This document shows, one piece after another, positions 3,831-46,710 of a DNA stretch of 64,000 bases. Under the pieces are notes generated by a model, which worked only from the letters and a program-made list of their open reading frames with translations, ran no database searches and was not told the origin of the DNA. The position numbers were made by a program, and so were the translations under genes. Position 1 is the stretch's first letter; each line of letters starts with the position of its first letter. The stretch comes from Chloroherpetonaceae bacterium (GTDB taxonomy: Bacteria; Bacteroidota; Chlorobiia; Chlorobiales; Chloroherpetonaceae), in NCBI GenBank assembly GCA_028277445.1, contig JANQGG010000005.1:1-64000 (forward strand). Direction: 5' to 3'.

Positions 3831-3839
3831 GAACATATC

Positions 3840-3878
3840 GAAAAAAAAATGCCATTGCCTGGAATCAGCAATGGCATT
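3840..3878 (-). terminator. rho-independent terminator of clpP
   Basis: On the minus strand, 20 bp after the clpP stop, a perfect 10-11 bp stem (atgccattgc, 3849-3858, pairing with 3868-3877) with a 9-base loop is followed by a run of nine T residues. This is a textbook intrinsic terminator. Confidence 0.9.
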
Positions 3879-3898
3879 AATCTTTAATCGATCATTGA

Positions 3899-4576
3899 TT
3901 ACTTATCAGGCGTATCGGGTCGTTTGGTGAAGACCTCATCAATAATGCCATATTCTTTTGCTTCCGTAGCGCTCATCCAGCGATCGCGCTCCGAGTCTTC
4001 GCGAATTTTGACCACTTCCTGCCCGGTATGTTTGGAAAAGAGTTCTTCAAGCAATCGTCGAATTTTTTCAATTTCTTTTGCCTGTATCACAATATCCGAC
4101 TCCTGTCCCTGAACGCCACCCGAAGGCTGGTGAATCATAATACGCGAGTGCGGCAAGGCTGCACGTTTGCCTTCAGCGCCCGAGGCGAGCAAAAACGCTC
4201 CCATACTTGCTGCCATACCCACGCATACGGTTGCAACATTAGGGCGGATGTATTGTATGGTGTCGTAAAGACCTAAACCGGCCGATACACTTCCACCCGG
4301 AGAATTAATGTACATGAAGATATCGCGCTCGGGGTCTTCCGATTCCAGAAAAATCATTTGCGCCATGATCAAACTGGCAGTGTGGTCATCAACCGGAGTA
4401 CCAAAGAAAATGATGCGCTCTCTAAGCAATCGTGAAAAAATATCAAATGCCCGTTCGCCGCGTCCTGATGTTTCAATAACCATGGGAACCAACATGTTGT
4501 TAATTCCTTTTTCTATGTGCGGTGAATACAGATTTTTTTGGGCGTAATGATCAAAACCAAAATTAATGTTTGCCAT
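3899..4576 (-). CDS. clpP: ATP-dependent Clp protease proteolytic subunit
   Basis: Serine protease that forms the tetradecameric proteolytic chamber used by ClpX/ClpA/ClpC unfoldases. With the start at 4576 (MANINFG) the protein has 225 residues and the catalytic triad is Ser124 (in GMAASMGA), His149 ([10 protein letters not shown]) and Asp198 (SERDRW). The frame is open 21 codons further to an ATG at 4639, but that extension ([12 protein letters not shown]) has no family counterpart, and neither start has a strong ribosome-binding site. The N-terminal ~25 residues are longer than in E. coli ClpP. clpX is not adjacent in this window. A strong terminator follows the gene. Confidence 0.95.
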
Positions 4577-24127: not shown

Positions 24128-25687
24128 TTAAGCCTGCTTCATGCTTAAGATTTTTTCTAAGACTTCGGTTTTAAGCTGAGTTTCGCGTTGAAATTCCCCA
24201 TTATAGGCTTCTTCTTCTTTTTGAAGCTCGTAGCACGTGGTATTATCAATATCGAGGATAGCAAAAGACAGACCAGAGTTTACAAACGCTTGATGTCGTT
24301 TTAAGAAAAACGCTTTACAACATGTTCCGATAACCGATGTTGAACCCGATTGCTTTTCAAGATTTAAAACGCTGACAAAGTTTTCAAAATTATTTATAGT
24401 TACAACTTTCAAACCTTTCTCCCTACCCATTCTATAAGCATCGCCAACCGAACATTTACCGCATTCAGCGCAACGATCTTCATACCTGAACTTGCACGAT
24501 TTTGGTTTTGCACAGTAGGGCACCAATAAAAGTTTAGCGTCTTTAACAATGGATTGTAAGTTTGCGCCCCTGGTTTCGATGGCGCTGATATCCTTAAAAT
24601 CAAATCCCCTTTCGATATAGCTAAACTTATCCATGAGCATGCCAAGCGCTCTCATAAAATCCGATTTACCAAATGCAACGCCTTCAAAGGGATAGTTATC
24701 CAAAAAACGACTGGCTTTTTCCAATACGTCGTCCGCATGCGTTTCTTTCAGAGTAGCTTCAAGGTCATAAAGAATTCGGCGGGGATTAATCAAAACATCG
24801 CCATGGATCATCAGTTGTTTGAGGCGTTTATGTAAGGGGTTAAAACGCGCTGAAAGTCGAAGTAAGCCGCCCTTTGTTTTAGAGACCGTTTCAATGCTCT
24901 CCGATAACGGCATGGCTTTGTTGCGATCAGGATCAATCCAATCTATGCTTTGCTTTTCAGTGATTTTTTCAGCAAACAACTGCCGCTCTTTTTCCGATGG
25001 CTGTGCATGTTCAGTGTTTCTGCCTAAGAGCTCAGCCAACGCATCGGTGATGACATCTTTTATGACGTCCATTGTTGGCAATATTTTAAGCAGCTCTTTC
25101 ATTGAAACCACGCGCTGGCTGGCGGAGCTGAGTTCTTTGGCCGAAAGCTTTTCAACCGGAATTTTGAGCGCTTTCAACAAATGCTCCATGTTGAAATCAA
25201 TGAGCAACGTGCCTTGAAAGAAGATAACATCATCATCCATTACTCCGCCCGTACCGCTTATTTTGCGGCCATCAACTTCAATATCGTTCCTGGGGCGAAA
25301 TGATGCAGCAATACCTAAACGATTCAAGGCTTTGGCAAAAGCTTGGCAAAGCTCTGCAGAAATTTGGTTCATGGAATAATTCCCCTGAAATGACGACCTA
25401 TGGGCAATCACTTCCCATCCCAATTGACCTTCATCAAAATAAATAGCACCGCCGCCTGTTATCCGACGATTGACCTCAATTCCTGTATTCTGACAATACG
25501 ATAAGCGAAGCTCATCATGAATGGATTGATGATAACCAACCAATGCCGAAGGTTTGAACTGCAAAAAACGAATGGTATCGGGAACGCACTCTGCAATGCG
25601 CGCTTCCATAATTGCTTCATCCCATGCGATATTTTCGGCGGCTGTTAAAAGCCCGGTATCGAGAACACGAATGTTAGATTGTTGCAT
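24128..25687 (-). CDS. lipoate-protein ligase (sLpl(AB)-type) fused to DUF116
   Basis: Predicted to attach lipoate or octanoate to LbpA. About 519 residues. Residues 1-~250 are an LplA-like catalytic domain: RFLQFKPSALVGYHQS, then EVNRRITGGGAIYFDEGQLG and RPRNDIEVDGRKISGTGG, the last carrying the adenylate/lipoyl-binding Lys. Residues ~275-340 are the accessory (LplB-like) domain, with HGDVLINPRRILYDLEATL. Residues ~350-519 form a cysteine-rich DUF116 domain (VPYCAKPKSC, RCAECGKC, IGTCC). The start at 25687 (MQQSNIRV) is preferred to 25735; it still overlaps the double radical-SAM gene by 14 bp. Last gene of the tusA-lip operon. The DUF116 fusion is unusual. Confidence 0.85.
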   Translation of the reverse strand: MQQSNIRVLDTGLLTAAENIAWDEAIMEARIAECVPDTIRFLQFKPSALVGYHQSIHDELRLSYCQNTGIEVNRRITGGGAIYFDEGQLGWEVIAHRSSFQGNYSMNQISAELCQAFAKALNRLGIAASFRPRNDIEVDGRKISGTGGVMDDDVIFFQGTLLIDFNMEHLLKALKIPVEKLSAKELSSASQRVVSMKELLKILPTMDVIKDVITDALAELLGRNTEHAQPSEKERQLFAEKITEKQSIDWIDPDRNKAMPLSESIETVSKTKGGLLRLSARFNPLHKRLKQLMIHGDVLINPRRILYDLEATLKETHADDVLEKASRFLDNYPFEGVAFGKSDFMRALGMLMDKFSYIERGFDFKDISAIETRGANLQSIVKDAKLLLVPYCAKPKSCKFRYEDRCAECGKCSVGDAYRMGREKGLKVVTINNFENFVSVLNLEKQSGSTSVIGTCCKAFFLKRHQAFVNSGLSFAILDIDNTTCYELQKEEEAYNGEFQRETQLKTEVLEKILSMKQA

Positions 25688-27728
25688 GAATTGACTCCCC
25701 GGTTTTAGCCATTGAACAACATGTGTATTGAACATCGTACGTGTAATTCAATTCTCCGGCCACTTCTATAATCCCATCCGCCGGAAAAGCGATGCTATCA
25801 ATACCCGACGCAAGTGCATATAAATCCAGTTTTTGTTTGTACTCACCGCCAGGTCTGGCACATCCTAAAATGACTTCGGTATGCTGAAGTTTAGCCCGGC
25901 ATTCAGCAATAAACTCCCCGGTTTCTTCAGGCGAAGGTGCAACAAATAAATTCTGATGCTTGGCATAATACGGCATCACAACCACCAAAATAAGCGACTC
26001 AACCGGATGACGGGCAATCATATCTAGCGCTGTCCATTCGCCTTTCATTTGTCCGAAATGCAAACCCATCACGATATGCGGCGCAATTTTCATTGATGTT
26101 GCCGCAAGACGGCTTAATGAAACCTCAAAATCAGCCACTGTCTTATCCAAATGATACACATCCCGAATTGTCTCGTTAGACCCAATAATGTCAATCATTG
26201 CCGTTTGCACGCCAGCTTGCTCCAAGCCGTATGCGGTTTCATCATCAACCAAACCGGTATGGACAGCAAGGTTCAACCCGTATCGCAAATAAATTTCACG
26301 GATGGTCGGTAAAAATTCTTTTAACGGAAGCTCATTGTTTCGATCTGACCCACCGCTGATGAGCATACCCTGACCACCGGTTTTGGCAATGCCTTCAGCC
26401 ACCTTCAACAAACGCTCCGGCGTTTCAGCCGGGATCATCGATTCAAGTAATTTACCTTTGCAATGCTCGCACTGCAACTGACATTTTGCTCCGGTAATTG
26501 AAACCGAAGGAAAACTACGCTGATGGCAATGATTACTGACTTCTGAAGTACTATAATTTTTAAACGATGGCAAATAAAATTTGATGTGGGGTTTTTTGCT
26601 CTTTTCCCGAATGTTTTGGGCTTTATGCCAAAGACTGGCATTGAGTTCAATATCTTCGAACTGATCAACCTCTTTTATGGCGTTGGGTACAATTAAGCCG
26701 CTCATTTGCCTGCGAACATGCGCCACATCGTCTTTATTCAACGCAAAAGGGAAGCTTCGAATATCGGATGGCGGTCCGTCGCCAAAAGGTCTGTTGCAGG
26801 CCGTTGGCTTGCAGTCTTTGGAAGGACATCCGCATGTTTCAAATGGTACGCCCGTATTGAAGATTTCTTCAAGGATGTTTTTTTCGAGGCCAAAGTCTAC
26901 AATCCTGCCATCTTCTGAAAACGACATTTGTGAGGCGTTGGACATTTTCATATCAATTAAAAATCGTGCGAGCTGGGTTCGGCGGTATTGCCCGGCATCG
27001 CATGGCTGTTGATCTTCCAGTAACGAATTCTTTTCAGGATTAAAGCTAAACAGATGGGTTGAACCGCCCATATCGGAAACTTTCTGAATTACTTCAACCA
27101 TTTCCTTTTCGCTCTCACCAAGTCCACTAATGAGATGGACGCCAATTCGGCCATCGCCGAATATTTTTGCCGCGCTCTCCAGCGTATCCCAATATTTTTC
27201 CCATCGATGCGGGCCATGAACACCTTTGCCACGGTAAGCATCAAAGAGATCGGGGCGTGCCAGGTCGATGGCAACGGTAAATCGGTCGGCGCCAAAATCA
27301 GCCAATTCTTGTATTTCCTGATCTTTAATGGTGGTTGGATTCGAAAGGATTGAAACCGGCAAGGACGTGCGCTGTTTAAACAGTTTCAGAACCGTAAGCG
27401 TGTCCGTTTTACTTTGCGGATGCGTAATGGTGCTAATGCACGCGCGTTCCAATATCTCCGACTCGTTGGCTTTTTCTATAATTAATTCCGTTGAATACTC
27501 CGGCCACTCAACCCGGATAAAGCTCTCATCTTTAATAGAAAGGGCCTTGCCATTTTTTTTGCGTGAAAGTCCACAATAGGCGCAACTGGCGCGGCAACCG
27601 CCCGGATAGGTTAAAAGCAGATTCAAACAATACAATTTGGCATTTCTATGGAACAACCCGTCTTTTAAACCGAGTGTCATGGCCGCCGCAAGGCTTATGC
27701 GAAGATAATCGGGACTTGATTTGATCAT
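25674..27728 (-). CDS. fused double radical-SAM lipoate synthase (LipS1/LipS2 type)
   Basis: 684-residue protein with two complete radical-SAM halves. The first [4Fe-4S]/SAM motif is C45-x3-C49-x2-C52 (CRASCAYC), the second C416-x3-C420-x2-C423 (CQLQCEHC). Each half is ~330 residues, the size of the separate LipS1 and LipS2 proteins that jointly insert two sulfur atoms into octanoyl chains in the archaeal/sHdr-type lipoate pathway. Genes upstream (lipT) and downstream (lipoate ligase) match that pathway. I have not decided which half is LipS1. Cys-rich segments (CGCPSKDC near residue 300 and the C-terminal YTCCS) may bind auxiliary clusters. Natural fusion of the two is, as far as I know, not a usual arrangement. 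Confidence 0.85.
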   Translation of the reverse strand: MIKSSPDYLRISLAAAMTLGLKDGLFHRNAKLYCLNLLLTYPGGCRASCAYCGLSRKKNGKALSIKDESFIRVEWPEYSTELIIEKANESEILERACISTITHPQSKTDTLTVLKLFKQRTSLPVSILSNPTTIKDQEIQELADFGADRFTVAIDLARPDLFDAYRGKGVHGPHRWEKYWDTLESAAKIFGDGRIGVHLISGLGESEKEMVEVIQKVSDMGGSTHLFSFNPEKNSLLEDQQPCDAGQYRRTQLARFLIDMKMSNASQMSFSEDGRIVDFGLEKNILEEIFNTGVPFETCGCPSKDCKPTACNRPFGDGPPSDIRSFPFALNKDDVAHVRRQMSGLIVPNAIKEVDQFEDIELNASLWHKAQNIREKSKKPHIKFYLPSFKNYSTSEVSNHCHQRSFPSVSITGAKCQLQCEHCKGKLLESMIPAETPERLLKVAEGIAKTGGQGMLISGGSDRNNELPLKEFLPTIREIYLRYGLNLAVHTGLVDDETAYGLEQAGVQTAMIDIIGSNETIRDVYHLDKTVADFEVSLSRLAATSMKIAPHIVMGLHFGQMKGEWTALDMIARHPVESLILVVVMPYYAKHQNLFVAPSPEETGEFIAECRAKLQHTEVILGCARPGGEYKQKLDLYALASGIDSIAFPADGIIEVAGELNYTYDVQYTCCSMAKTGESIHATI

Positions 27729-27785: not shown

Positions 27786-28826
27786 TCAGTTTTGATAATA
27801 CTCACTAAAACCGATCCATAATTGCTTATAGGTTTCCCTGTCGATTGGGTGATGTTTGGCTGTAATGGTTTCAAAGGCCACGCGTTTCTTAATATCGCGC
27901 TGATTGGCGTGTTCAAAAATATCCATGACCTGTTCGGGATAGGCTTCCAAATCTTCGGGGTTAGAAGACGCTAGGAAATTTGCGGCAGCTTCACCTGCCA
28001 GTTCGCCGGTGAGCCTTGCACGATAAATCCCTTCTCCGGATATCGGATGCGTAATACCACAGGCATCGCCGGCCAAGAGAACATTGTTTCGCAGGAGCGA
28101 GGTGATACCAGTTACCGGAATCAATCCGCTCGAAAAAGATTGTGGCTCAGCGCCTAAACAAAACTCATCTTTGATGCGTTCATAAACTGTTTTAAGCAGG
28201 CGTTTAAGATTCAGTTCCTTTCTTTGGCCGGTAATGGCAAGCCCAAGATTTGCAACCCGGTTTTTGGGAAAAAGCCAGGCATAGCCACCGGGAATATCAT
28301 GGCTGAGCCAAACATGGATGTTTCGTAATGGTTTTTCCAAAGGAATGCTCATTTGAATGGCACGAGCAACTTCCGAAGAGATTTTTGGACCGGAAGCATC
28401 AATACAAAGTTTGGGGGCAACTTGTTTTTGATATCCGTTAATTAACATGACATTACCATTTTCAAGCAGCCTGCCTCGAGTCGATAGTTGAAAGCGAGCG
28501 CCGGCTTGCCTGGCTTTTTCGGCAAGATAAGCATCGTATCTGTCGCGATAAATCACATAACCCGGTGAATCCGAAATCCGAATGTCGCCATCCGGTAAAT
28601 GTGTTACCATTTTTTCAATTGACTGAGCAATTACGTCATCCGGTGCATTAAAACCTGCGCGGTGGATGAATTCAGCACATTGAACAGGCTTGCCGATTTC
28701 TTTTCGTTTGTCCAAAACCAGCACATTCCACCCCGATTTTGCCAACACATAAGCTGCACTAGACCCTGCCGGGCCACCGCCAATCACGACCACATCAGGA
28801 TTAGAATCCATCTCAGTCATAATCAC
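27786..28826 (-). CDS. lipT: LipT-like FAD-dependent oxidoreductase
   Basis: 346-residue flavoprotein of the geranylgeranyl-reductase-like group. The dinucleotide-binding motif is VVVIGGGPAGSSAAY near the N-terminus, and the second FAD motif is NNVLLAGDACGITHPISG. In sHdr gene clusters a protein of this family, LipT, accompanies lipS1/lipS2 and the lipoate ligase and is thought to supply electrons to lipoate assembly; this context supports the name. Several in-frame ATGs lie within the first six codons, so the exact start is uncertain. It lies 57 bp before the radical-SAM gene and 8 bp after dsrE2. Confidence 0.88.
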   Translation of the reverse strand: MIMTEMDSNPDVVVIGGGPAGSSAAYVLAKSGWNVLVLDKRKEIGKPVQCAEFIHRAGFNAPDDVIAQSIEKMVTHLPDGDIRISDSPGYVIYRDRYDAYLAEKARQAGARFQLSTRGRLLENGNVMLINGYQKQVAPKLCIDASGPKISSEVARAIQMSIPLEKPLRNIHVWLSHDIPGGYAWLFPKNRVANLGLAITGQRKELNLKRLLKTVYERIKDEFCLGAEPQSFSSGLIPVTGITSLLRNNVLLAGDACGITHPISGEGIYRARLTGELAGEAAANFLASSNPEDLEAYPEQVMDIFEHANQRDIKKRVAFETITAKHHPIDRETYKQLWIGFSEYYQN

Positions 28827-28834
28827 CGCAACAC

Positions 28835-29347
28835 TTAAATGAACAATTGAATATCAGCGTCGGAAGCGTACTCTAAAAACATGGCCGCACCGCCAAAATC
28901 AACGCCATCAATAAAATCGTCTTTGGTAAACCCAAACACATCCATCGTCATCTGGCAGGCAATGAATTTTACGCCAACTTCCTGGCATAATTCACGCAAT
29001 TCTTCAACAGTTGCTACGCCTTTGTTTTTAAACGTCTTTTTCATCATGCTGGTAGCCATGGTATTGAAACCAGGCGTATTACCGGAAATAAATCTGGGGA
29101 TAGACCAATTGATATTTTGAAACTGATCAGTACCAAACGGCATTTTCATCGGCATCGCCGGATTTGTTGCCGGGGCTATTTTTGCTTCAACTTTTTTATT
29201 GAGCAGGGTTAAGCCGTAAAAGGTAAAAAATACGACCACTTCCATATCCATCGCCGCAGCTGCCGAAGCCAAAATGAATGGCGGATATGCCCAATCCAAC
29301 GTGCCTTGCGAAGCAATTAATGCTACTTTTTTTGGAGTTTCACTCAT
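28835..29347 (-). CDS. dsrE2: DsrE2-like sulfurtransferase
   Basis: DsrE/DsrF-like protein of 170 residues, the long DsrE2 type. It has the N-terminal KVALIASQGTLDWAYPPFILA and VVVFFTFYGLTLL strands and the conserved late cysteine Cys131 in KFIACQMTMDVFG, the probable persulfide carrier. It also has Cys121. DsrE2 proteins move sulfane sulfur between rhodanese, TusA and the oxidising enzyme in the cytoplasm; some are membrane-tethered, but no clear transmembrane segment is evident here. It is 12 bp downstream of tusA, the classic tusA-dsrE2 pair. Confidence 0.93.
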   Translation of the reverse strand: MSETPKKVALIASQGTLDWAYPPFILASAAAAMDMEVVVFFTFYGLTLLNKKVEAKIAPATNPAMPMKMPFGTDQFQNINWSIPRFISGNTPGFNTMATSMMKKTFKNKGVATVEELRELCQEVGVKFIACQMTMDVFGFTKDDFIDGVDFGGAAMFLEYASDADIQLFI

Positions 29348-34477: not shown

Positions 34478-36031
34478 TTAGCTTAACGAGATTAACTGCG
34501 GCGCTTTCACCCAGATTTTTTCAGTAATCCATGCGCCAATCAGAATCAAAACTGCTGCTGCCATTAAGGCGGCCATATTTGAAAAACTTAAGAGAAGTAC
34601 TACCGGCAAGAGATGGCCCAATACCAGGCTTCCGAACCAGAATTGTTGCTTAAGCTCGCCATTGGTAATTAGTTTTGCGGTTTCTTCAGCTTGCTTGGAA
34701 GGGTGTTCATTGAATACCTCTATAACCATCGAGAGCAAATTGATGATCAGCCCGCCAACAAGTCCCCATTTCAGTAAACTGAGCGCTTCGCCGTTAGCTC
34801 CGGTTAATCCTAGCAATATTATCATTACTGCGCCCCCTATAACGACCGAGGTCACAAACATATGAAATGCCAGCAAAGGGCTTTGCCAGAAATCGCGCCC
34901 TTTTGCCGAACCAAACAGGAACGCTGTATAGACGGCAATGACAACGGCAATAATGGCCGATCCGGCCAAAGCCAAAGGCTCAAGCCATGAAAGATTTAAG
35001 AGCTTGCTTGCACCCCACAACGCCAGAAACAAACCGTAAGCGCTAATGGTATAACCGCCTTTCACCAGCCACGATTTAAATTGGGGTCGAAGCATGACGG
35101 AAGAAAACCGATCTGGACGGTCAAGGTCCTTAACCAGGAAAATGCCGGTTAGCGCAAGGAAAACCAATGATGTTCCCAGAACGCTCCATTGAACGGTCTC
35201 TGAAAATGAAACGGAAAAAAATGAGGTTATTAAAAATAGCGCAAGAATTACGCCTGAGGATATGGCTTTTGTCCATATGTATGCCGGCACTTCCCATCCC
35301 CAAACCACGCCTTTCGACGGGCTATCATACACATTGTATGTTTCGGTGTGTTTATTGGTACTTGCCAACCCGTTTTTATGATGGCCGTTACCGGAGTGTC
35401 CTTTATTGACAAAATGCCCAACCCCTCGTGATTGTTCACTCCAAAGGTATTGCCCATCGGTCTTGATGTTCAACGGATTCAAAGACGGCCCATCGCCATT
35501 AATGTAAAATACATTCGGACGGGTTGATTTTTCGGCTTTGCGAACGCTGGTTTGCTGAGTTGATATTAATTTTGAAATTTCCGACTCTGAATCATCCAAA
35601 TCACCGGAAACAATGGCTTCCTGAGGACAAATGACTTCACAGGCCGGTTTCAGACTCAGCTCCATGCGATGCGCACAATAATTACATTTGGCTGTGGTTT
35701 GGGTATCGGGATCAATATAGACCGAATTGTACGGGCAGGCCTGGGCACAGGCTTTACATCCGATACATCGGCGGCTGTCAAAATCCACAATACCGTCGTC
35801 GCGTTGTTGAAGCGCTTCCACCGGACAAATGTAAACGCAGGGAGGTTCTTCACAATGATTGCATCGCATCACTGTAAAATAACGCCTGACATCAGGAAAT
35901 TTTCCCCGTTCCACATATTTAACCCAAGTTCTATTAACGCCAAGCGGGACTTCATTTTCCGATTTGCAAGCTACCGTGCATGCATGGCAGCCGATGCATT
36001 TTCGAGAATCTATAACAAAACCGTAGTTCAT
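34478..36031 (-). CDS. fused SoeB-SoeC: FeS electron-transfer plus NrfD-type membrane anchor
   Basis: 517 residues. Residues 1-~155 are a DmsB-like ferredoxin with four cluster motifs: C12-x2-C15-x2-C18-x3-C22, CNHCEEPPCVYICP, CIGCKACAQACP and CNYCAHRMEL...CEVICP. A polar, His/Gly/Asn-rich linker follows (~160-245). Residues ~250-517 contain about eight hydrophobic helices of the NrfD/PsrC family, including KDLDRPDRF, the quinone-site region of such anchors. It would pass electrons from SoeA to the quinone pool. In most organisms SoeB and SoeC are separate genes; here one reading frame joins them. Confidence 0.87.
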   Translation of the reverse strand: MNYGFVIDSRKCIGCHACTVACKSENEVPLGVNRTWVKYVERGKFPDVRRYFTVMRCNHCEEPPCVYICPVEALQQRDDGIVDFDSRRCIGCKACAQACPYNSVYIDPDTQTTAKCNYCAHRMELSLKPACEVICPQEAIVSGDLDDSESEISKLISTQQTSVRKAEKSTRPNVFYINGDGPSLNPLNIKTDGQYLWSEQSRGVGHFVNKGHSGNGHHKNGLASTNKHTETYNVYDSPSKGVVWGWEVPAYIWTKAISSGVILALFLITSFFSVSFSETVQWSVLGTSLVFLALTGIFLVKDLDRPDRFSSVMLRPQFKSWLVKGGYTISAYGLFLALWGASKLLNLSWLEPLALAGSAIIAVVIAVYTAFLFGSAKGRDFWQSPLLAFHMFVTSVVIGGAVMIILLGLTGANGEALSLLKWGLVGGLIINLLSMVIEVFNEHPSKQAEETAKLITNGELKQQFWFGSLVLGHLLPVVLLLSFSNMAALMAAAVLILIGAWITEKIWVKAPQLISLS

Positions 36032-36389: not shown

Positions 36390-36851
36390 TCATTGATCAA
36401 ATCCTTCGCAGTGGATGCATTCCTTGAAGTTCTTTTCTTCCATGTAATTCTTAAAGCCATCGGTAGCGCCAGCGGCATCCACAAGCTCAGCCATATCGCC
36501 TTGCAGATTATCGGGCTTTAATTTTACGATCCACCCTTCTTTGTATGGACTTTTGTTCAACATTGGCGGATCTTTTTCAACCGTCTCATTGATCGCAATA
36601 ATTTCACCCGAAAACGGACTTTTAACCGGGCCTACCCATTTACCGCTTTCTACAGTTGCAACGCTGCCATTCTTTTTAATGGACTTTCCGATTTTTTTTG
36701 CTTTGCAGTGGATAATGCTTCCTGCCATGGATTGAGCGATGTCTGTCATCCCAAGCGTAAGCGTACCATCAGCTTCTTCCCTTACCCAAATGTTATTATC
36801 AACATGATATTTTAAATCGTCCGGCAAGACGCAATTATTGATTTCTGCCAT
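36390..36851 (-). CDS. lbpA: lipoate-binding protein LbpA (GcvH-like)
   Basis: 153-residue GcvH-fold protein. The lipoyl-lysine is Lys71 in VATVESGKWVGPVKSP; the ESGKWVG context distinguishes sHdr-linked LbpA from the glycine-cleavage protein, which usually has ES-V-K. A short Cys-containing tail (CIHCEGFDQ) is extra. In sHdr organisms LbpA carries the sulfur substrate on its dithiolane arm. No glycine-cleavage genes are nearby; sHdr, lip and dsrE genes surround it. Confidence 0.95.
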   Translation of the reverse strand: MAEINNCVLPDDLKYHVDNNIWVREEADGTLTLGMTDIAQSMAGSIIHCKAKKIGKSIKKNGSVATVESGKWVGPVKSPFSGEIIAINETVEKDPPMLNKSPYKEGWIVKLKPDNLQGDMAELVDAAGATDGFKNYMEEKNFKECIHCEGFDQ

Positions 36852-37319: not shown

Positions 37320-39425
37320 TTAATTCAACGACACGTTGATCTTGTTTAAGTCGGCCTGGTTGTTTGTGCTTTTCTCAGCTTCGGCAGATTTTTCCGACGA
37401 CGCTTCTTGTCCATTTTTGGAATCAAGACCCATCGCCTGCCAAACCAGATCAACGATATCTACAGTTTGCATTTTTCCTTCTAACCCAACCGTTTTGATC
37501 GCATCCGAGAACATGGTCATATCTTTGGGGCAGGCCACTGCAAAGTATTCCACGCCCAAAGTTGACGCTTCTTCCATACGATTTTCACTGGGTCGTTTTT
37601 TAACATCTTCGTGATCGGGAATCCAGATTCTGCCGCCGCCAGCGCCACAGCAAAACGAATTGGATTTGTTGCGCGGCATTTCAACCACATCCACCCCGCA
37701 TTTTTCCATCAGCTCACGCGGCGCTTTATAAATGCCGTTATAGCGTCCGAGGTAGCATGGATCGTGGTATGTTGCGCGAATATCAAGTTTCTTCTTGAGG
37801 TTGATTTTGCCAGAGTTGATCATATCCAATAAAAAGGTTGAATAGTGATTGACCTTGAACTCGCCGCCTAGCGCGGGATATTCGTTTTTAATGGTGTTAA
37901 ACGTGTGCGGATCGGTGGTGATCACTTCTTCGAAGTTACACTCGTTCATGGCTTCAATATTAGATTCGGCCAACACTTCAAACAAACCTTCTTCACCGGC
38001 ACGGCGAACATCATTACCGGCCGATTTTTCCTTTTTACCCATGATGCCAAAATCTATGCCGGCTTCGTTGAGAATTTCAGCAAATTTTCGGGTGTTATCC
38101 AAGCAGTTTTGATTGTAAGACGCGTAATCGCCAACAAACCAGAGATACTTAACCTCGTCTTTGGTGGCATCTTTTACTTTAAAGTCGAGCGGCTTTGTCC
38201 ATCCGCTGCGCTTACGAGCCGATTCACCCAGCGAGTTGCCTTGTTCATCCAAACCTCTTAAGGCGTCGGCAAGCTCAGCCGGCATTTGAGCGTCAAACAC
38301 CTGGTTACGACGCATATCAATCAAGTCCATAATGGGCTCGTTACCGACCGGGCAAATATTGGCGCAAGCAAAGCACGTGGTGCACGCCCAAACCCCATCT
38401 TCGGAAATCGCATAATCGAGCAATGCATCTGCCGTACCGTTTTCACCGGCAAGCGCTTTTGCATTTCGGTTAATGTAATACCGCTTGTTGATCTCCAAAG
38501 CGCCCGGACTAAGTGGCGCGCCGGATTCATGTGCGGGGCACACTTCCTGGCATCGATTACACATGATGCACGCATAAGCATTCAGCACACGGTTCAGGGG
38601 AAGATCATTAAGTTCTTTGGCGCCCGGTTTGGATTTATTGGCCGGTTTCTCTAATTCACCAAAGGCGTTATCGCGCTTGAAAGCAAGATTCAACGGGGCG
38701 ATCATCAAGTGGATATGTTTGCTTTTCGGGAAGTACGGCAAAAACATCACGATCAATCCCATTGCCAGCCACCAAGCCACATGAATGCCAACTTCCAATC
38801 CGGCTGAATTGTAAAACAATGGCGCCACAACGCTGGCTGTTGGCATAAATGGGTCGAAATGTTGTTTCTCGGCCAGGTGAAATACCGTTCCCAACCAACG
38901 CGAACCAACATGTACTAAAATAAATACACCAACAATTAACGAATCGCGTTTGATTCCACCGGCAGCAACACCGGGTTCCAATTTTACATTGGGGTTAAAC
39001 TCAAAGGCTTTTGGCTTGAACACAAACCGGCGTATCAAAAAAAACACGACACCTGAAAGGACAGCCATGCTGAACAGATCAGAAAGGATATTAAAGGTTT
39101 GTGCAATAGGATTTGTGCTGGCAACCGTTGTCCATCCATGAACATAAGCTTCCAAAATATCATTAACATTGACTATCACATAAAAACTAAATCCAAAGAA
39201 AATCAAGGCGTGAAATGTACTGGAAACCGGTCTTGATTTTGCGATGGTTTTTTGCGCGCCAACATCCACAAGGGCTTTGATAAGCCTTATAATGAACTCG
39301 GTATTGTGTGCGGCCGGTTGGCCTTTGCGGACTATTGCAATCAATTCATTGAATCTTTGAAATGCAATAGCCCCACAAACAATAATGAGTAAAATAAATG
39401 CAATCTGTTCATAACTTGTCAGCAT
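37320..39425 (-). CDS. membrane FeS oxidoreductase, ETF:quinone oxidoreductase type (HdrD-like)
   Basis: 701 residues. The N-terminal ~240 residues hold about five helices (near 5-25, 70-92, 115-133, 160-185 and 208-232) resembling the nitrate-reductase gamma/HdrE b-type cytochrome domain. Two [4Fe-4S] motifs follow: C286-x2-C289-x2-C292-x3-C296 and CTTCFACANICP. The C-terminal half has the HdrB/D 'CCG' features (HDPCYLGRYN, SFCCGAGGGRIW, VACPKDM). It is 30 bp downstream of etfA; proteins of this kind beside etfBA move electrons from ETF to menaquinone. Its C-terminal ~400 residues are clearly paralogous to the 41313-42599 product. Confidence 0.88.
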   Translation of the reverse strand: MLTSYEQIAFILLIIVCGAIAFQRFNELIAIVRKGQPAAHNTEFIIRLIKALVDVGAQKTIAKSRPVSSTFHALIFFGFSFYVIVNVNDILEAYVHGWTTVASTNPIAQTFNILSDLFSMAVLSGVVFFLIRRFVFKPKAFEFNPNVKLEPGVAAGGIKRDSLIVGVFILVHVGSRWLGTVFHLAEKQHFDPFMPTASVVAPLFYNSAGLEVGIHVAWWLAMGLIVMFLPYFPKSKHIHLMIAPLNLAFKRDNAFGELEKPANKSKPGAKELNDLPLNRVLNAYACIMCNRCQEVCPAHESGAPLSPGALEINKRYYINRNAKALAGENGTADALLDYAISEDGVWACTTCFACANICPVGNEPIMDLIDMRRNQVFDAQMPAELADALRGLDEQGNSLGESARKRSGWTKPLDFKVKDATKDEVKYLWFVGDYASYNQNCLDNTRKFAEILNEAGIDFGIMGKKEKSAGNDVRRAGEEGLFEVLAESNIEAMNECNFEEVITTDPHTFNTIKNEYPALGGEFKVNHYSTFLLDMINSGKINLKKKLDIRATYHDPCYLGRYNGIYKAPRELMEKCGVDVVEMPRNKSNSFCCGAGGGRIWIPDHEDVKKRPSENRMEEASTLGVEYFAVACPKDMTMFSDAIKTVGLEGKMQTVDIVDLVWQAMGLDSKNGQEASSEKSAEAEKSTNNQADLNKINVSLN

Positions 39426-39455
39426 GACATTCTCCTTTAATTTATTTCATTAGTT

Positions 39456-40400
39456 CTAGTCAAGCTCATCCATCAATTCTTCGGTTACATCAAATAGATC
39501 ACCTACAATACCATAATGGGCAACATCAAAGATGGGAGCCTGAGGATCAGTATTCACGGCAATAATCGTGCTTGCACTCTTCATGCCTTCAATGTGTTCG
39601 GGCGCGCCCGAAATGCCTAATGCCAGATACACTTTCGGTTTAACTTTTAAACCGGATTTACCAACCTGGCGAGATTTCGACATCCAGCCTGCATCAACGA
39701 TGGGTCGGGAACAGGAAACATCAGCATTTAAGCTTTCAGCAAGTTCTTCAATCGCTTCAATGTCGTCTTTACTGCCAACGCCTCGGCCAATTGATACCAA
39801 CACCTGACTTTGGGTGATATCCACATCGGAAGCTTCAGGTTCAATCAAGGTTTTAAAACGCACTTTTCCAGCGCCTTTTCCAGCCGAAACATCTTCCAGG
39901 CTTGCGCTTCCGCCGCTTTTCCCAGTTTCAGGATCGGCTGAACCGGCTAGTACCATCACAATAGCCTGCTGGCTAACCTGAACCTGGCTGTTTAATTTTC
40001 CACCATAAAGCTGACTCGTACATTTAAACGCAGAGCCGGAAGCTTCGATGGCATTGCAATAAGAAATAATAGGTAGGTTTAATGTGGTACCAACTTGGCC
40101 TGCAATATCAACACCCATTGAGGTTGAGCCAATTAACACCAAATCCGGTGATTTATCTTTGATGACCGATTCTACAATTGCAGAATATTCTTCAGGATTG
40201 TATTCATCACCGGCATCAGCGGCCAAAACCACATCTGCAGCGCCTAATTGAGAAGCGTTCGATTTCATTGCGCCGAAAACAAGCGCTGAACATGTTCCAC
40301 CGGTTGCGCCGGCCAACTCACGGGCAAGGCCCAACATTTCAAAGGAAATATCTTCAAAATTGCCCTTTATATGCTCTGTAACAACTAATATGTTTGCCAT
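39456..40400 (-). CDS. etfA: electron transfer flavoprotein alpha subunit
   Basis: 314-residue FAD-binding subunit. The C-terminal FAD domain is intact: VSIGRGVGSKDD, CSRPIVDAGWM, RQVGKSG, YLALGISGAPEH and IIAVNTDPQAPIF. With EtfB it carries electrons from a dehydrogenase to a quinone-linked acceptor. Encoded between etfB and the membrane FeS oxidoreductase inside the sHdr operon, which makes sHdr the likely electron donor here. No dedicated acyl-CoA dehydrogenase is nearby. Confidence 0.97.
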   Translation of the reverse strand: MANILVVTEHIKGNFEDISFEMLGLARELAGATGGTCSALVFGAMKSNASQLGAADVVLAADAGDEYNPEEYSAIVESVIKDKSPDLVLIGSTSMGVDIAGQVGTTLNLPIISYCNAIEASGSAFKCTSQLYGGKLNSQVQVSQQAIVMVLAGSADPETGKSGGSASLEDVSAGKGAGKVRFKTLIEPEASDVDITQSQVLVSIGRGVGSKDDIEAIEELAESLNADVSCSRPIVDAGWMSKSRQVGKSGLKVKPKVYLALGISGAPEHIEGMKSASTIIAVNTDPQAPIFDVAHYGIVGDLFDVTEELMDELD

Positions 40401-40445
40401 AACTTTTATTGATTAAAAGGTTTTGAATTTCTAAGGATTATTCGC

Positions 40446-41195
40446 TTAAGCTACGCCGAGATCTTTCAGCACATCCAAAAGGTCTTTACCGGAATCCAGC
40501 ATTTTAGCGCCTTCGCCTTTTGGTGGCGGCGCTAATGCGAGTACTTCAATTGAAGAAGCGCCATTGGAAGAGCTTGCAGATAATGATCCGATTTCAGCAG
40601 AATCCTGGATTTGTTTGATTTTGCTGACCGGGGCATAGCGTGGTGGTTGCTCAGCGGCCTGAATACCAATAACAGCCGGAAGATCGGCTTCAAATTCAGC
40701 CATAATACCACCGGAATATTCCTTAAAAATGCTGGCTGTGTTTCCACTTACCTTAACGCCTGTAACGGCGCTTATACATGGCATATCCAGAGATGCGGCA
40801 ACAATAGGGGCCAGTTGTCCATCCCGATCATCTACAGACTGAACGCCTACCATGATCATATCACCACCTTCAGCTTTAGCCGCTTCGGCCATCAGTTTTG
40901 CAAATTGGGCGCTATCGGAAGCCTCCCCTGAAATTGCAATGGATTTCGCTAAGGTAGCCCCTTTGGCCAAGGCTGTGTAAAGCACTTTTTCGGAACCTTC
41001 ACCCTCTTGGGTAAGCGCAACCACTTCATCGGCCTCGCCTCGTTCTTTTAAAAGAATGGCTTCTTCAAGGGCATGCTCATCGTACTCATTTAGCTTGAAC
41101 TTGATTTCAGATACATCTAATGCTTTACCGGAATCATCTACCTCCAAATCTTCCACCAAATCGGGAACCTGGCGAAGTAAAACAAGAATTTTCAT
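40446..41195 (-). CDS. etfB: electron transfer flavoprotein beta subunit
   Basis: 249-residue subunit binding AMP or a second FAD. Family features are the MKILVLLRQVPD start, LNEYDEHALEEAI, and the signature VGVQSVDDRDGQLAPIVA. An AGAGGAGAAAG ribosome-binding site precedes the ATG. The 117-bp gap before it is the longest inside the operon and contains a strong hairpin. Whether this pair is electron-bifurcating could not be decided by eye. Confidence 0.96.
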   Translation of the reverse strand: MKILVLLRQVPDLVEDLEVDDSGKALDVSEIKFKLNEYDEHALEEAILLKERGEADEVVALTQEGEGSEKVLYTALAKGATLAKSIAISGEASDSAQFAKLMAEAAKAEGGDMIMVGVQSVDDRDGQLAPIVAASLDMPCISAVTGVKVSGNTASIFKEYSGGIMAEFEADLPAVIGIQAAEQPPRYAPVSKIKQIQDSAEIGSLSASSSNGASSIEVLALAPPPKGEGAKMLDSGKDLLDVLKDLGVA

Positions 41196-41256
41196 GGCTT
41201 TCTCCTCTATTTTATATAATAGTGAATGGTTTAAAAAATAAGTTTGCTATCGCCTG

Positions 41257-41288
41257 CTTGAACAACCCTTAAACCCGGGTTATTCAAG
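41257..41288 (-). other. intercistronic stem-loop before etfB
   Basis: A 12-bp stem (cttgaacaaccc with gggttattcaag, one mismatch) and an 8-base loop in the 117-bp gap between the C2-B2 gene and etfB. No T run follows on the minus strand, so a processing or mRNA-stability element, or partial attenuation, is more likely than termination. Confidence 0.5.
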
Positions 41289-41312
41289 AAAGCGTTATGG
41301 TTTTGTTGACAT

Positions 41313-42599
41313 TTACCCCTCAGGGATACATGCATTAATCACTTCAACAATATCCATGACTTCTAACTTGCCTTCGGCATTTACGGCTTTAACGGCATCT
41401 TCAAAGCGGGATACTTCATACGGACAGCAGACCAACAATACCTCAGCGCCGGTTTCAACCGCTTCCCGAACACGATTGGTTGATAAACGCTCGGATGTAT
41501 AATTGGCAACAAGGCCATCCAGCCACATCCCGCCACCGCCGCCACCGCAGCAATAGCTTTGCTCTTTGTGGCGAGGCATTTCAATAAATGTGGCGCCAGG
41601 AATGCTGTTTATCAATTCTCTTGGAGCATTGTATTCATCGTTGTGCCGACCGAGATAGCACGGATCATGAAAGGTGACTTTTTTATCAAATGATTTGGTC
41701 ATCAAAGCTTTTAGCTCATCAAGCCTTGAACTCAAGAACTGTGTGTAATGCGTTACATTTCTTGTGTTTCCGGTAATTCCGGGGTAGAACTTTTTAATGG
41801 CGTTGTAAGCGTGCGGATCATTAACAACTAAGTCTTTGTGAGGAAATTTCTCAAAAAGGGCATCGTTGTGATTGGCCAGATCTTCAAACAAGCCGGATTC
41901 CCCAACAAGTCGTTGCGAATCGCCATCGGTTTTCTCAGCTTCGCCTAAAATCCCGAAATCCACACCAAGCCGATTAAAAACATTCACCATTGCCAAAGCG
42001 GCATCATTACCACGACCATGATAGGCATAAAAATCACCGACAAACCAAAGCACATCAACCGACTCGCCTTCTTCGGCTTTAGCGAGATTTTTGATCGAAT
42101 CCTTAATCGGCTTGGTCCATTTGGCTCGTTTCCTGGCCGATTCACCCATTGGATTTCCATATTCGGAAACGCTCTGTAACATTTCCTGGATTTCATCGGG
42201 AATAAATCCACCCAAAACCGCTTTTTCACGCGCCGCAGGAATAATTTCACCCATATTCACTTCTTTCGGGCATACGCGAACACAGTTCTTGCAGGTAGTA
42301 CACAACCAGAGGTAATCATCTTCTATCAAATTTGTACCGATCTGTAATTTGCGGTATATCTTTCGCGGGCCATAACTTCCGACATACTCAACCGGACACG
42401 AACCCACACATTTGGCACACTGATAACAATTGTTTATGCTTTCAGCCCCGGGTATATCTCGTAATTGTTCAAGACCTGAAATATCGAATTGCGTTAAAGC
42501 ACGGGGGACAAACATCTTGTTCCAGTGCCCCGAAATATCCATTCCATCTACGATCACCTGCTCAAGTTGAACAGAGTCTTGATACTTATGTTCAGACAT
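41313..42599 (-). CDS. fused sHdrC2-sHdrB2-like (HdrD-like) FeS subunit
   Basis: 428 residues. Two [4Fe-4S] motifs occur in the N-terminal part: C58-x2-C61-x2-C64-x3-C68 and C100-x2-C103-x2-C106-x3-C110. An HdrB-like CCG region follows, with HDPCYLGRHN, SYCCGGGGGGMW and VCCPYEV. In standard sHdr clusters (C1-B1-A-hyp-C2-B2) these are two genes; here one frame occupies their place, directly after sHdrA. It lacks membrane helices, so it is cytoplasmic. Strong similarity to the C-terminal part of the 37320-39425 product shows a duplication within the locus. Confidence 0.88.
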   Translation of the reverse strand: MSEHKYQDSVQLEQVIVDGMDISGHWNKMFVPRALTQFDISGLEQLRDIPGAESINNCYQCAKCVGSCPVEYVGSYGPRKIYRKLQIGTNLIEDDYLWLCTTCKNCVRVCPKEVNMGEIIPAAREKAVLGGFIPDEIQEMLQSVSEYGNPMGESARKRAKWTKPIKDSIKNLAKAEEGESVDVLWFVGDFYAYHGRGNDAALAMVNVFNRLGVDFGILGEAEKTDGDSQRLVGESGLFEDLANHNDALFEKFPHKDLVVNDPHAYNAIKKFYPGITGNTRNVTHYTQFLSSRLDELKALMTKSFDKKVTFHDPCYLGRHNDEYNAPRELINSIPGATFIEMPRHKEQSYCCGGGGGGMWLDGLVANYTSERLSTNRVREAVETGAEVLLVCCPYEVSRFEDAVKAVNAEGKLEVMDIVEVINACIPEG

Positions 42600-42634
42600 T
42601 GACTTTCCTCCACATTAAAATTTCCATCGGATTA

Positions 42635-43681
42635 TTAATTTTTCATTGCAAATGCGCATGCTTTCATAGCTGCATTTCCACCCATCGAAACGGAATCTTC
42701 CAAATCAGCCGGTCCTGTTGAAGCGCCTGCAACGAACACCCCTGGCACTGATGTTTCTACTGTGTTCAGAGGACCACCGATTGTACCAATGTAACCGTGT
42801 GATTCTAATGGCAGATTAAACACACCGGCCATCTCTTTGGTACCTTCGCTTGGCTCCATACCGGTTGAAAGAACCACCACGTCCATTGGAATTTCCATCG
42901 GGCGACCCATGGTTGTATCTTCACCTTTAACAATTAGCTTATCGCCTTGCTTGGTAATCTCAGTAACAATACCTTTGATGTAATTGACTTTATATTCCTC
43001 CTGAGCTTTCCAATACAGATCATCTTCCCAACACCCATAAGCACGCAGATCGATGTAAAAGACAAAGACTTTTGCATCCGGTAGGATTTGCTTGATCTCC
43101 ATCGCATCTTTTGAAGCAATACCGCAACAGACTTTTGAACACCATTGATTTCCGATTTGGCGATCACGGCTTCCAACGCACTGAATAAAGCACACGCTTT
43201 CCGGCGCTTCGCCGCTAGAAGGTTTCACAAACTTGTGTTCTTTCAACATCTTCTCGGCATCCGTAAGCGTAATTACATCGTCATATTCATAGTATCCATA
43301 GACTTGCGTTTCCTCACCCGGATCAAAATGATCAAAACCCGTGCTCACGATAACGCTTGAAACATCAATGGTTTTACCGCTACCACCATTCTGAACACTT
43401 ACTTTCATATTTCCGGCAGAACCTTCAACAGATGTTACTGTGCTGTTTGTGATCACTTCAACATTACCATCATCGGTAACAGCTTTAATCATTTCACCCA
43501 TCGCTTCTTCGGCATCACGAAAATCCGGGGTTAGCGCAGCATATTTTTCTTTGATCGGCGTACCGCCCAGGTACTCTTCTTTTTCAACCAATACGGCTTT
43601 GCGTCCAAGATCCGCAATACCTTTGGCAGCAGCTAACCCGGCCGGGCCGCCGCCGATGACTAAAATTGGATTATCAGACAT
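42635..43681 (-). CDS. shdrA: sHdrA, FAD-containing subunit of sulfur-oxidising Hdr-like complex
   Basis: 348 residues with the start at 43681, where its ATG shares one base with the stop of sHdrB1 (TAATG). The N-terminal FAD motif is VIGGGPAGLAAAKG, and the later SVIVSTGFDHFDP and VFVAGASTGPADLEDS complete the flavin domain. The HdrA-type cysteine block is CVGSR, then CSKVCCGIASKDAMEIKQ. It is short and lacks the ferredoxin and thioredoxin-reductase-like extensions of methanogen HdrA, as expected for sHdrA. It is the electron-entry hub of the sHdr complex. Confidence 0.94.
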   Translation of the reverse strand: MSDNPILVIGGGPAGLAAAKGIADLGRKAVLVEKEEYLGGTPIKEKYAALTPDFRDAEEAMGEMIKAVTDDGNVEVITNSTVTSVEGSAGNMKVSVQNGGSGKTIDVSSVIVSTGFDHFDPGEETQVYGYYEYDDVITLTDAEKMLKEHKFVKPSSGEAPESVCFIQCVGSRDRQIGNQWCSKVCCGIASKDAMEIKQILPDAKVFVFYIDLRAYGCWEDDLYWKAQEEYKVNYIKGIVTEITKQGDKLIVKGEDTTMGRPMEIPMDVVVLSTGMEPSEGTKEMAGVFNLPLESHGYIGTIGGPLNTVETSVPGVFVAGASTGPADLEDSVSMGGNAAMKACAFAMKN

Positions 43682-44880
43682 TAAACATCCTCCCATGTTA
43701 AAAATTGTTTTTGACCTGATTTGATCGGGCCAAGAGATTCTTCAAATTCCGCCCATGCTTTATCGGCATCAATCCCCATTTTCTCCAGCAAGGGTTTATG
43801 ATCAACCCCATGCCAATGAAGCTGGCAAACTTTGTATGGATGCGCGCCCATGGCTAGTGCAGCAAACTGAACATCGCTCATGACCGGCAATCCTACATTG
43901 CATTTATGCGCCTTTGCGGCAAACTGACTTTTATCCAGAGTTGTCAGGCATCCGGTATCTTGTGTGAGCAGCAGATCGGGATTGGCTTCATCTTTCATGC
44001 GCTCAATCTTGCGTGTCGCAGCAAACGATCTTGAGAACTCACGACTGACCAGGATATGACGAAAACCAAAGCCACAGCAATCGTGCCAGGTCGAATAATC
44101 AGCAACGTTTGCCCCTAAAACATCTGCAATGGCTGTCATTACCGGGGTTCGTTGGCCATTGAAGTAATCGTCATCATAGATCACATCTTCAGGAACTAAT
44201 TTGTGATAATGGCAAGCGGGATGCACTGTTACGGTAATATTACTGAGGTCTAAAACTTTTCGCTCTGCAATTTTGTGGCGCATAACATGCAACCACTCGG
44301 AGTAATGAACAATCTCTTCAGGAAAAGCGAACGGCAAACCAAGTTTATCCATAATGGTACGAACTTGCTTCCTGAGTTCGGGGTAATGCAAGAGCTGCTC
44401 TCGGGTTTCTTTATAATGGCCATAGCTGGTTCCGCAATGAATATATGGGAAATAACCATCCACTTTAGCCTGTGCAAAATTCCGTACGGCAATGGCTGCC
44501 TGAGCCGGAACATTAGAGGCAGAAGATGCATAGTAGTTCCAAGCCGTGCATGAGGTTTGATCTTTAGGATCAAAATAATCCAAATTGAACTGGCGATGCA
44601 GCCAGAAAATTGATGTCGGGTATCCCGGAATGTGTCCGCATTGACCGCATGACTTATGATGCCATCCGCCTTGCAACGGGATTTTCTTTGTTCTTCCAAA
44701 TTTTGTCGTGACTTCCACATAGGGTTCAGGAACACGAATAACTTCCAACTCGCCTTGTTCTTCAAGCTCAAAAAGCTCGTGGCGATAGTCTACAGATTTC
44801 TTATTTGGCTTACGTGTAAATTTTCGCTGATCCAGCCCGATAAAACTGGCTGACTTCTTTTCTTCCACTGTATTACTCAA
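43681..44880 (-). CDS. shdrB1: sHdrB1, CCG-domain subunit
   Basis: 399 residues, longer than typical HdrB (~290-300), with an N-terminal extension of ~80 residues. Cluster-binding cysteines are in SCGQCGHIPGYP, SCTAWNYY and IHCGTSYG for one CCG repeat, and HPACHYHK, HDCCGFGF and DTGCLTTLDK for the second. In Hdr these sites bind non-cubane [4Fe-4S] clusters that act on the disulfide; in sHdr they are proposed to act on the LbpA-bound sulfur substrate. It is 17 bp after sHdrC1 and overlaps sHdrA by one base. Confidence 0.93.
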   Translation of the reverse strand: MSNTVEEKKSASFIGLDQRKFTRKPNKKSVDYRHELFELEEQGELEVIRVPEPYVEVTTKFGRTKKIPLQGGWHHKSCGQCGHIPGYPTSIFWLHRQFNLDYFDPKDQTSCTAWNYYASSASNVPAQAAIAVRNFAQAKVDGYFPYIHCGTSYGHYKETREQLLHYPELRKQVRTIMDKLGLPFAFPEEIVHYSEWLHVMRHKIAERKVLDLSNITVTVHPACHYHKLVPEDVIYDDDYFNGQRTPVMTAIADVLGANVADYSTWHDCCGFGFRHILVSREFSRSFAATRKIERMKDEANPDLLLTQDTGCLTTLDKSQFAAKAHKCNVGLPVMSDVQFAALAMGAHPYKVCQLHWHGVDHKPLLEKMGIDADKAWAEFEESLGPIKSGQKQFLTWEDV

Positions 44881-44897
44881 AACCTTCCTCCTGTGAT

Positions 44898-45626
44898 TTA
44901 ATTTTCTTCTAAAATGTTTTCAACCTCATCGGCTTCCACACCATACTCATCCATTAATTCTTCAATTGTTTCTCCAAGAATGTCATAAATACCTTCATCA
45001 ACTTGTTCAATCAGCTCTAAATTACCTGTGAGTTTGAAAATCATGTAAAGTTGGAACTTGGTTTTATCACTGACATCCCAAGCAAGTTCGGTTGTATGAA
45101 GGGTATCCGGTGGAATAGCGCGGCGCCAAACATCTAAATTCTCCGCCACTACTTTTACATTTGGCCCCCAATCGGGGAAGAAATCAGGTTGAAGCATATC
45201 CGGAGCCACCTGCGTTCCGGTCGACATAACCTTGTAAATAATTCGACTGTAAGTCTTTAAGGCATCCTTTGCCGATTCCAAACCATTTTTCACGGCTACT
45301 TCTCTCATAATCGTTACAATTCCACCCGGACTGTTTTTCCTTGGGCAACGCGTGCTTGAAAAACATTGCGAACAGTCCCAAATCATGTCGTTCATCAATT
45401 CGTAAAATGTATCCACATCTTCCCTGGACATGGTTTGTGTTATAACCCTAGGTGAAAAGTCACAGAATCGTGCTGTTGGACAAGCGCCCACACATACGCC
45501 ACACTCAAAACACCCTTTCATGAAATCTTTCCACCGTATGTCCTGCTTAACCTGATTAAATAGATCCAGCTTCACTTCGTATGGGACATCTTTGTATTTC
45601 CTATCCCGATAAATTGATCTAGCCAT
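44898..45626 (-). CDS. shdrC1: sHdrC1, FeS subunit
   Basis: 242 residues; first gene of the main sulfur operon. Cluster 1 is canonical: C39-x2-C42-x2-C45-x3-C49. Cluster 2 is unusual: only C85-x2-C88 and C94-P are present, with Ser where the third Cys belongs and one residue fewer before the last Cys. The C-terminus is acidic (EELMDEYGVEADEVENILEEN, in part). It passes electrons between sHdrB1 and sHdrA. The 18-bp motif lies 159 bp upstream of the ATG at 45626. Confidence 0.92.
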   Translation of the reverse strand: MARSIYRDRKYKDVPYEVKLDLFNQVKQDIRWKDFMKGCFECGVCVGACPTARFCDFSPRVITQTMSREDVDTFYELMNDMIWDCSQCFSSTRCPRKNSPGGIVTIMREVAVKNGLESAKDALKTYSRIIYKVMSTGTQVAPDMLQPDFFPDWGPNVKVVAENLDVWRRAIPPDTLHTTELAWDVSDKTKFQLYMIFKLTGNLELIEQVDEGIYDILGETIEELMDEYGVEADEVENILEEN

Positions 45627-46189: not shown

Positions 46190-46471
46190 TTATGTATCGT
46201 CGTAATGGCCACGAAGTGAAAGCACATAAACAACAACTATGTCGTCTTCAATTTTATAGATCATTCGATCTTTTTTCGTCAATCTCCTTGACCAGTATCC
46301 GGCAAAATCGCCTTTAAGCATTTCCGGCTTTCCTATTCCCTCTCTTGGATGTGTCATAAGTTCACCGACAATTTTAGTAATTTTATTTCGAACTGCTGTA
46401 TTTCCACTTTTAAGCCAGTATTTAAGGTCTTTATCTGCTGAACTTGCAAATCTTATTTGATATCGTCCCAT
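46190..46471 (-). CDS. yoeB: YoeB-family mRNA interferase toxin
   Basis: 93-residue RelE-superfamily toxin. The YoeB signature is clear: GIGKPEMLKGDFAGYWSRR, then KDRMIYKIEDD and SLRGHYDD, the C-terminal HY being part of the active site. It would cleave mRNA on the ribosome when free. Overlaps its antitoxin by 19 bp. Located between ~35-bp direct repeats and beside a dead higA. Confidence 0.93.
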   Translation of the reverse strand: MGRYQIRFASSADKDLKYWLKSGNTAVRNKITKIVGELMTHPREGIGKPEMLKGDFAGYWSRRLTKKDRMIYKIEDDIVVVYVLSLRGHYDDT

Positions 46472-46710
46472 AATTGTTTGGTATCCTTAACCTCACGAAC
46501 ACGACCTTCTTTAATATCTTCTTCCGCCTCTTTCAGGGCTTCCAGAAGTTTAGGGTTTGAAAAATATTCGTCGTTGTCGTCAATCCTTTTTGCGGGAACA
46601 ATTTCATAAGTCTCGGTTTTGCCACACTGGATTATTACACGCTCAGTTTGAGATAAATTCAAATATTTTCGGAGATTTTTTCGAAGTTCTGTGGTACTAA
46701 TGGCTATCAT
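46453..46710 (-). CDS. antitoxin partner of YoeB (Phd/YefM-like)
   Basis: 85-residue protein. The N-terminal ISTTELRKNLRKYLNL is the Phd/YefM DNA-binding region, and the acidic C-terminus (EEDIKEGRVREVKDTKQLW, in part) would wrap the toxin. It is longer and more divergent than E. coli YefM. First gene of the pair, expected to autorepress. Confidence 0.85.
   Translation of the reverse strand: MIAISTTELRKNLRKYLNLSQTERVIIQCGKTETYEIVPAKRIDDNDEYFSNPKLLEALKEAEEDIKEGRVREVKDTKQLWDDIK

Follow-up and report, generated by a model that had tools for sequence, protein, structure and literature searches.

A predicted single-chain LipS2–LipS1 lipoyl synthase encoded beside the sulfur-oxidation genes of a Chloroherpetonaceae bacterium

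The locus and its sulfur-oxidation neighbourhood

The window analysed here, a 64,000-nucleotide stretch of contig JANQGG010000005.1 from a Chloroherpetonaceae bacterium (assembly GCA_028277445.1), contains a single frame of 684 residues at 27728–25674 on the minus strand, beginning with an ATG at 27728, ending in a stop at 25676–25674 and free of internal stops, whereas translation of the plus strand from 25674 runs into many. Residues 1–342 (26703..27728, minus) match the LipS2 family NF053743 and were aligned with 34 relatives, and residues 343–684 (25677..26702, minus) match the LipS1 family NF053742. The single frame, its CxxxCxxC sites at C45/C49/C52 and C416/C420/C423 of the translation, and its placement between a lipT and a lipoate ligase gene had all been claimed in the initial annotation and are borne out, the LipT-like flavoprotein gene lying on the 5′ side and the lipoate–protein ligase gene on the 3′ side. 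The strand, and the fact that LipS2 precedes LipS1, are additions to it. The fusion is present in single copy in the genome (3.42 Mb in 70 contigs, 99% complete), which encodes no free LipS1 or LipS2 elsewhere but does encode a canonical LipA as a separate gene.

Read 5′ to 3′ on the same strand, the surrounding genes encode HdrC1, HdrB1, HdrA, a fused HdrB3, EtfB, EtfA, an HdrD-like membrane protein, a small DsrE-like protein, LbpA, SoeB+C, SoeA, a TauE-like exporter, DsrE2, LipT, the fusion and a ligase with a DUF116 domain, the DsrE-like, Soe and TauE names being partly assigned by reading the sequence. The stretch from HdrC1 to the HdrD-like protein (37320..45626, minus) forms a type II-like sHdr cluster. 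The mark of type II is a single cluster that unites shdrC1-B1-A-H, fused B3 and etfAB (PMC11582611); of these, C1, B1, A, fused B3 and EtfAB were identified here. The expected substrate is LbpA, a GcvH-like lipoate-binding protein (36390..36851, minus; PF01597, E 3.8e-37) whose sequence points to K71 as the likely modified residue. The genome has two genes of GcvH type, this one and an ordinary GcvH that neighbours a glycine cleavage gene. Elsewhere in this sulfur-oxidation island, a SoeB-like iron-sulfur subunit and a SoeC-like membrane anchor share one 517-aa frame (34478–36031, minus), a second fusion within it. Flanked by the sHdr cluster on one side and an amidoligase gene on the other is a small adjacent gene pair resembling, by eye, a toxin-antitoxin system (46190–46710, minus).

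Closest to the fusion are the sulfur carrier DsrE2 (28835..29347, minus; NF047629, above cut-off) and the LipT-like FAD oxidoreductase (27786..28826, minus; geranylgeranyl reductase family TIGR02032), the proposed electron donor, which adjoins the fusion as has been published for lipT next to lipS genes. Downstream, the frame of the ligase with C-terminal DUF116 (24128..25735, minus; PF21948 and PF01976) probably begins translation at M17 (25687), behind a GGGGAG, and would then overlap the 3′ end of the fusion. Its DUF116 domain carries several cysteines and may take part in maturing LbpA; the same Lpl-then-DUF116 arrangement appears in many LipS clusters of another phylum (loci L002 and L049–L062) and did not turn up in the alphaproteobacterial sister group described below. 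The ligase frame of the alphaproteobacterial LipS clusters runs, by eye, into an alpha/beta-hydrolase-like domain (L003, 514–2631; L011, about 2516–4026); as a guess, this extension may be lipX, which overlaps slpl in Hyphomicrobium.

With LipT and the ligase adjacent and LbpA and the sHdr genes on the same strand, the set matches sHdr-associated lipoate assembly. Given what PMC10332631 says of the machineries of E. coli and B. subtilis, an LbpA-specific synthase is the most likely role of the fusion.

The frame and its junction

The DNA at the junction reads CGC AGG CAA ATG AGC GGC, with the ATG encoding M342 (26703..26705, minus), the last conserved LipS2 column. This column holds L, M or I in almost all of the 34 LipS2 relatives, none of which ends there: at least one further residue always follows, and the relatives terminate a few residues past a motif such as RRQL. 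The next segment (residues 343–372; 26613..26702, minus) corresponds in the alignment to the N-terminal part of alphaproteobacterial LipS1 proteins, which align from about residue 343–351 of the fusion onwards. LipS1 thus begins at about the point where LipS2 ends, indicating a joint without an added linker, and the roughly 20 residues between the domains are, on this alignment, the N-terminal extension of LipS1 itself.

An AlphaFold model (39 sequences) has a mean pLDDT of 85.8, with two barrel domains mostly above 90 and a junction that falls below 50 at residues 346–355 and 357–359, the segment being predicted as flexible up to about residue 360. The initial annotation had suggested looking for facing active sites; the prediction provides two confident barrels and a flexible joint, and its pTM of 0.60 does not fix the relative orientation of the halves.

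These features bear on whether the fused protein is the only product of the gene. Free LipS1 could arise in addition, either from an internal start at ATG342, which sits exactly at the domain border with an AGG three bases upstream, or through cleavage of the segment 346–359, which is predicted to be disordered; the ratio of the two activities would then depart from 1:1. An AGG at a 3-base spacing is a weak site, however, and we regard such a mixed output as rather unlikely. The 1:1 ratio is fixed if the protein stays uncleaved and ATG342 does not serve as a start for LipS1.

Whether the frame is intact at all, a point on which the initial annotation allowed for a frameshift, comes down to one A at 26705–26707, which decides between a fused frame and two genes that overlap at ATGA. 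Deleting one A from CAAATGAGC gives CAATGAGC, a textbook stop/start overlap, and an extra A introduced by sequencing or assembly would join two genes that truly overlap. Such an ATGA overlap of lipS2 and lipS1 does occur in locus L058 (genome G498), the genes of L057 and L060 overlap or abut, and no fused relative was found among 80 other LipS-bearing genomes. The two-gene reading, however, would end LipS2 at Q341, a point past which the relatives that reach it extend by a hydrophobic residue and one or more others. It would also leave LipS1 with M342 as its sole possible separate start, the next in-frame start codon being TTG386, within the conserved domain, and with AGG-CAA-ATG as a poor ribosome-binding site, although DsrE2, LipT and the fusion too have poor sites at their starts. 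Moreover, three consecutive A make an unusual place for an error, and the genes nearby match their families over the full length, their frames unbroken. An error of this kind is improbable: a single base could still split the frame, but the fused reading suits both families better.

Two LipS halves and their cluster ligands

The proposal that the frame unites two LipS proteins is supported by the family searches, in which each half scored best against its own LipS family with biotin synthase (BioB) far behind; the refuting case named in the initial annotation, a half closest to an unrelated radical-SAM family, did not arise. Residues 9–320 match positions 1–284 of the 292 in the LipS2 model NF053743 (E 3.9e-62, 210 bits), and residues 402–671 match positions 3–268 of the 268 in the LipS1 model NF053742 (E 2.7e-67, 227 bits), as against 47 bits for BioB, the next best NCBIfam family. 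Matches over nearly the full length of both models are not expected by chance. Both scores lie under the curated cut-offs (270 for LipS2, 230 for LipS1), which was considered and rejected as a warning sign: nine of ten stand-alone LipS1 and LipS2 proteins from related clusters also fall short, with ranges of 188–241 bits for LipS2 and 190–246 bits for LipS1. Among the NCBIfam families matched by the fusion there is no model for a LipS1–LipS2 fusion. An identity as LipA, judged by a Cx4Cx5C auxiliary motif plus RSSY, was rejected as well: the auxiliary cysteines are placed as in LipS1 and LipS2, and the LipA model gives a trace match of 20 bits.

Conservation was counted in alignments with 34 LipS2 and 26 LipS1 proteins from other genomes. 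Another alignment was anchored with two loci read through intergenic stops purely as an alignment aid. In the LipS2 half, the radical-SAM motif C45/C49/C52 (27573..27596, minus) is invariant in 34/34 relatives, as are the expected auxiliary-cluster ligands C97 (27438..27440, minus) and C301 and C311 (26796..26828, minus). In the LipS1 half, the motif C416/C420/C423 (26460..26483, minus) is invariant in 26/26, as are H551 (26076..26078, minus) and the expected auxiliary-cluster ligands C623 (25860..25862, minus) and C670-C671 (25716..25721, minus). Mutants of the T. kodakarensis enzymes identified C85, C276 and C279 of LipS2 and C230, C276, C277 and H159 of LipS1 as residues that matter, H159 being essential (PMC9585515). 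The fusion ligands agree with these in number and order. H551 corresponds to H159, C623 to C230 and C670-C671 to C276-C277; by position and count C97 would be the counterpart of LipS2 C85, and C301/C311 those of C276/C279, with a different spacing. Three further cysteines (C299, C306 and C610) occur in none of the relatives sampled, C299 and C306 flanking the auxiliary-cluster ligand C301, and C243 is missing from most.

With all expected ligands kept, both halves look active from their sequences. A tandem radical-SAM protein could conceivably have an inactive half, and one half of the fusion might be catalytically dead and serve only to bind substrate, a case for which no positive support was found. 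It is highly improbable, given that both halves retain every expected cluster ligand together with the near-universal residues of their relatives and that the genome holds no free LipS1 or LipS2 to take over. Two radical-SAM domains of another family, such as BioB-like ones, can be dismissed almost entirely despite BioB being the next best family and the nearest solved fold, considering the far higher LipS scores and the genes for lipoate attachment and LbpA that surround the fusion. In keeping with that fold, Foldseek with the predicted structure placed biotin synthase first and lipoyl synthases (LipA) further down; a sequence search of the PDB returned no LipS structure, and only biotin synthases matched the LipS1 profile there.

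Relatives, proposed reaction route and known systems

The survey of relatives covered the class of the window (98 genomes), two phyla and further groups, with archaea, Aquificota, Firmicutes and others outside the sample; it is possible that LipS fusions exist in those groups. In the 80 other LipS-bearing genomes LipS1 and LipS2 are encoded by distinct genes, which in some cases share a few bases, and for genomes in which the DNA was not read this separateness is taken from search matches alone. Three loci with open frames of about 700 aa (L032, L036 and L039) were considered as fusions and rejected, their DNA having in-frame stops between the genes. Plasmid and viral collections yielded no relative of the fusion, the plasmid match being to another radical-SAM family (23.5%).

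Trees of both halves recover the same sister group, the alphaproteobacterial LipS proteins (support 90/76 and 100/98), identifying them as an orthologous pair that was joined. The gene order in that sister group is DsrE2-LipS1-LipT-LipS2-ligase, with LipS1 upstream of LipT, and this difference implies that LipS1 moved behind LipS2 before or at the fusion. The joining of a pre-existing LipS2–LipS1 pair is disfavoured, as that order was seen in a distant clade (L052–L058) and not in the sister group; an origin by rearrangement is therefore likelier. LipS2/LipS1 overlaps of a few bases, observed in L057 (4957–6947), L058 (7505–9513, ATGA) and L060 (5098–7115), are likely a step towards fusion in another lineage. 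G087, which alone among the other genomes belongs to the same family, encodes separate and distant LipS1 and LipS2 proteins (35–37% identity). Its Etf and HdrD-like proteins are 59–66% identical to those of the window, and its sHdr cluster (G087:C1:144000-158000, L047) contains two ligase genes. It seems that the lipS genes were replaced in one of the two genomes.

Taken together, the frame is likely a natural LipS2–LipS1 fusion acting as a single-chain lipoyl synthase dedicated to the LbpA of the sHdr pathway. In the route we propose, whose chemistry and reaction order come from papers on the separate enzymes, the ligase would attach octanoate to LbpA, after which the LipS2 half would cleave SAM at its C45/C49/C52 cluster, abstract hydrogen from C8 and insert sulfur there from an auxiliary cluster on C97/C301/C311. 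The resulting 8-mercaptooctanoyl-LbpA would pass on to the LipS1 half, whose C416/C420/C423 and C623/C670/C671 clusters, with H551, would put the second sulfur at C6, LipT probably being the electron source. In T. kodakarensis, LipS2 acts first to place sulfur on C8 and LipS1 second at C6 (PMC9585515); the order of the halves in the fusion is thus the published reaction order. The tether would hold the halves 1:1 and close together, so that the intermediate need not diffuse off; both halves would be active within one chain, and the hand-over would gain from the tether. More tentatively, with chances somewhat short of even, the octanoyl arm of a single bound LbpA might swing between the two sites, LipS2 first and LipS1 second, while staying on the protein throughout. 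If so, the fusion would represent a second, independent route to a single-chain lipoyl synthase.

Such a natural 1:1 fusion in reaction order offers a ready construct for structural work and for tests of how the 8-mercapto intermediate is handed over, and it would show that LipS1 and LipS2 tolerate, and perhaps favour, tethering. Its parts are already known, while their join was not found in the literature searched: where PMC10332631 speaks of fusions it names none between LipS1 and LipS2, and neither does PMC9585515, in which the word "fusion" is absent.

Among known systems, BioB shares radical-SAM sulfur insertion and the closest solved fold with the fusion but differs in its substrate, its one domain and its 2Fe-2S auxiliary cluster. 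A fusion in lipoate assembly is known in LplA-LipA (NCBIfam NF053790), which joins a ligase to LipA and not two sulfur-inserting enzymes. LipA shares with the proposed role of the fusion the principle of one polypeptide inserting both sulfurs into a carrier-bound octanoyl group, yet it relies on a lone radical-SAM domain with a single auxiliary cluster and starts at C6, whereas the fusion has two domains, each with its own set. The two-protein LipS1 and LipS2 system of T. kodakarensis and of the sHdr sets of Thioalkalivibrio and Hyphomicrobium has the same families, cluster ligands and neighbours (LipT, ligase and LbpA); there the enzymes are two separate proteins, whereas here they form one chain with LipS2 first.
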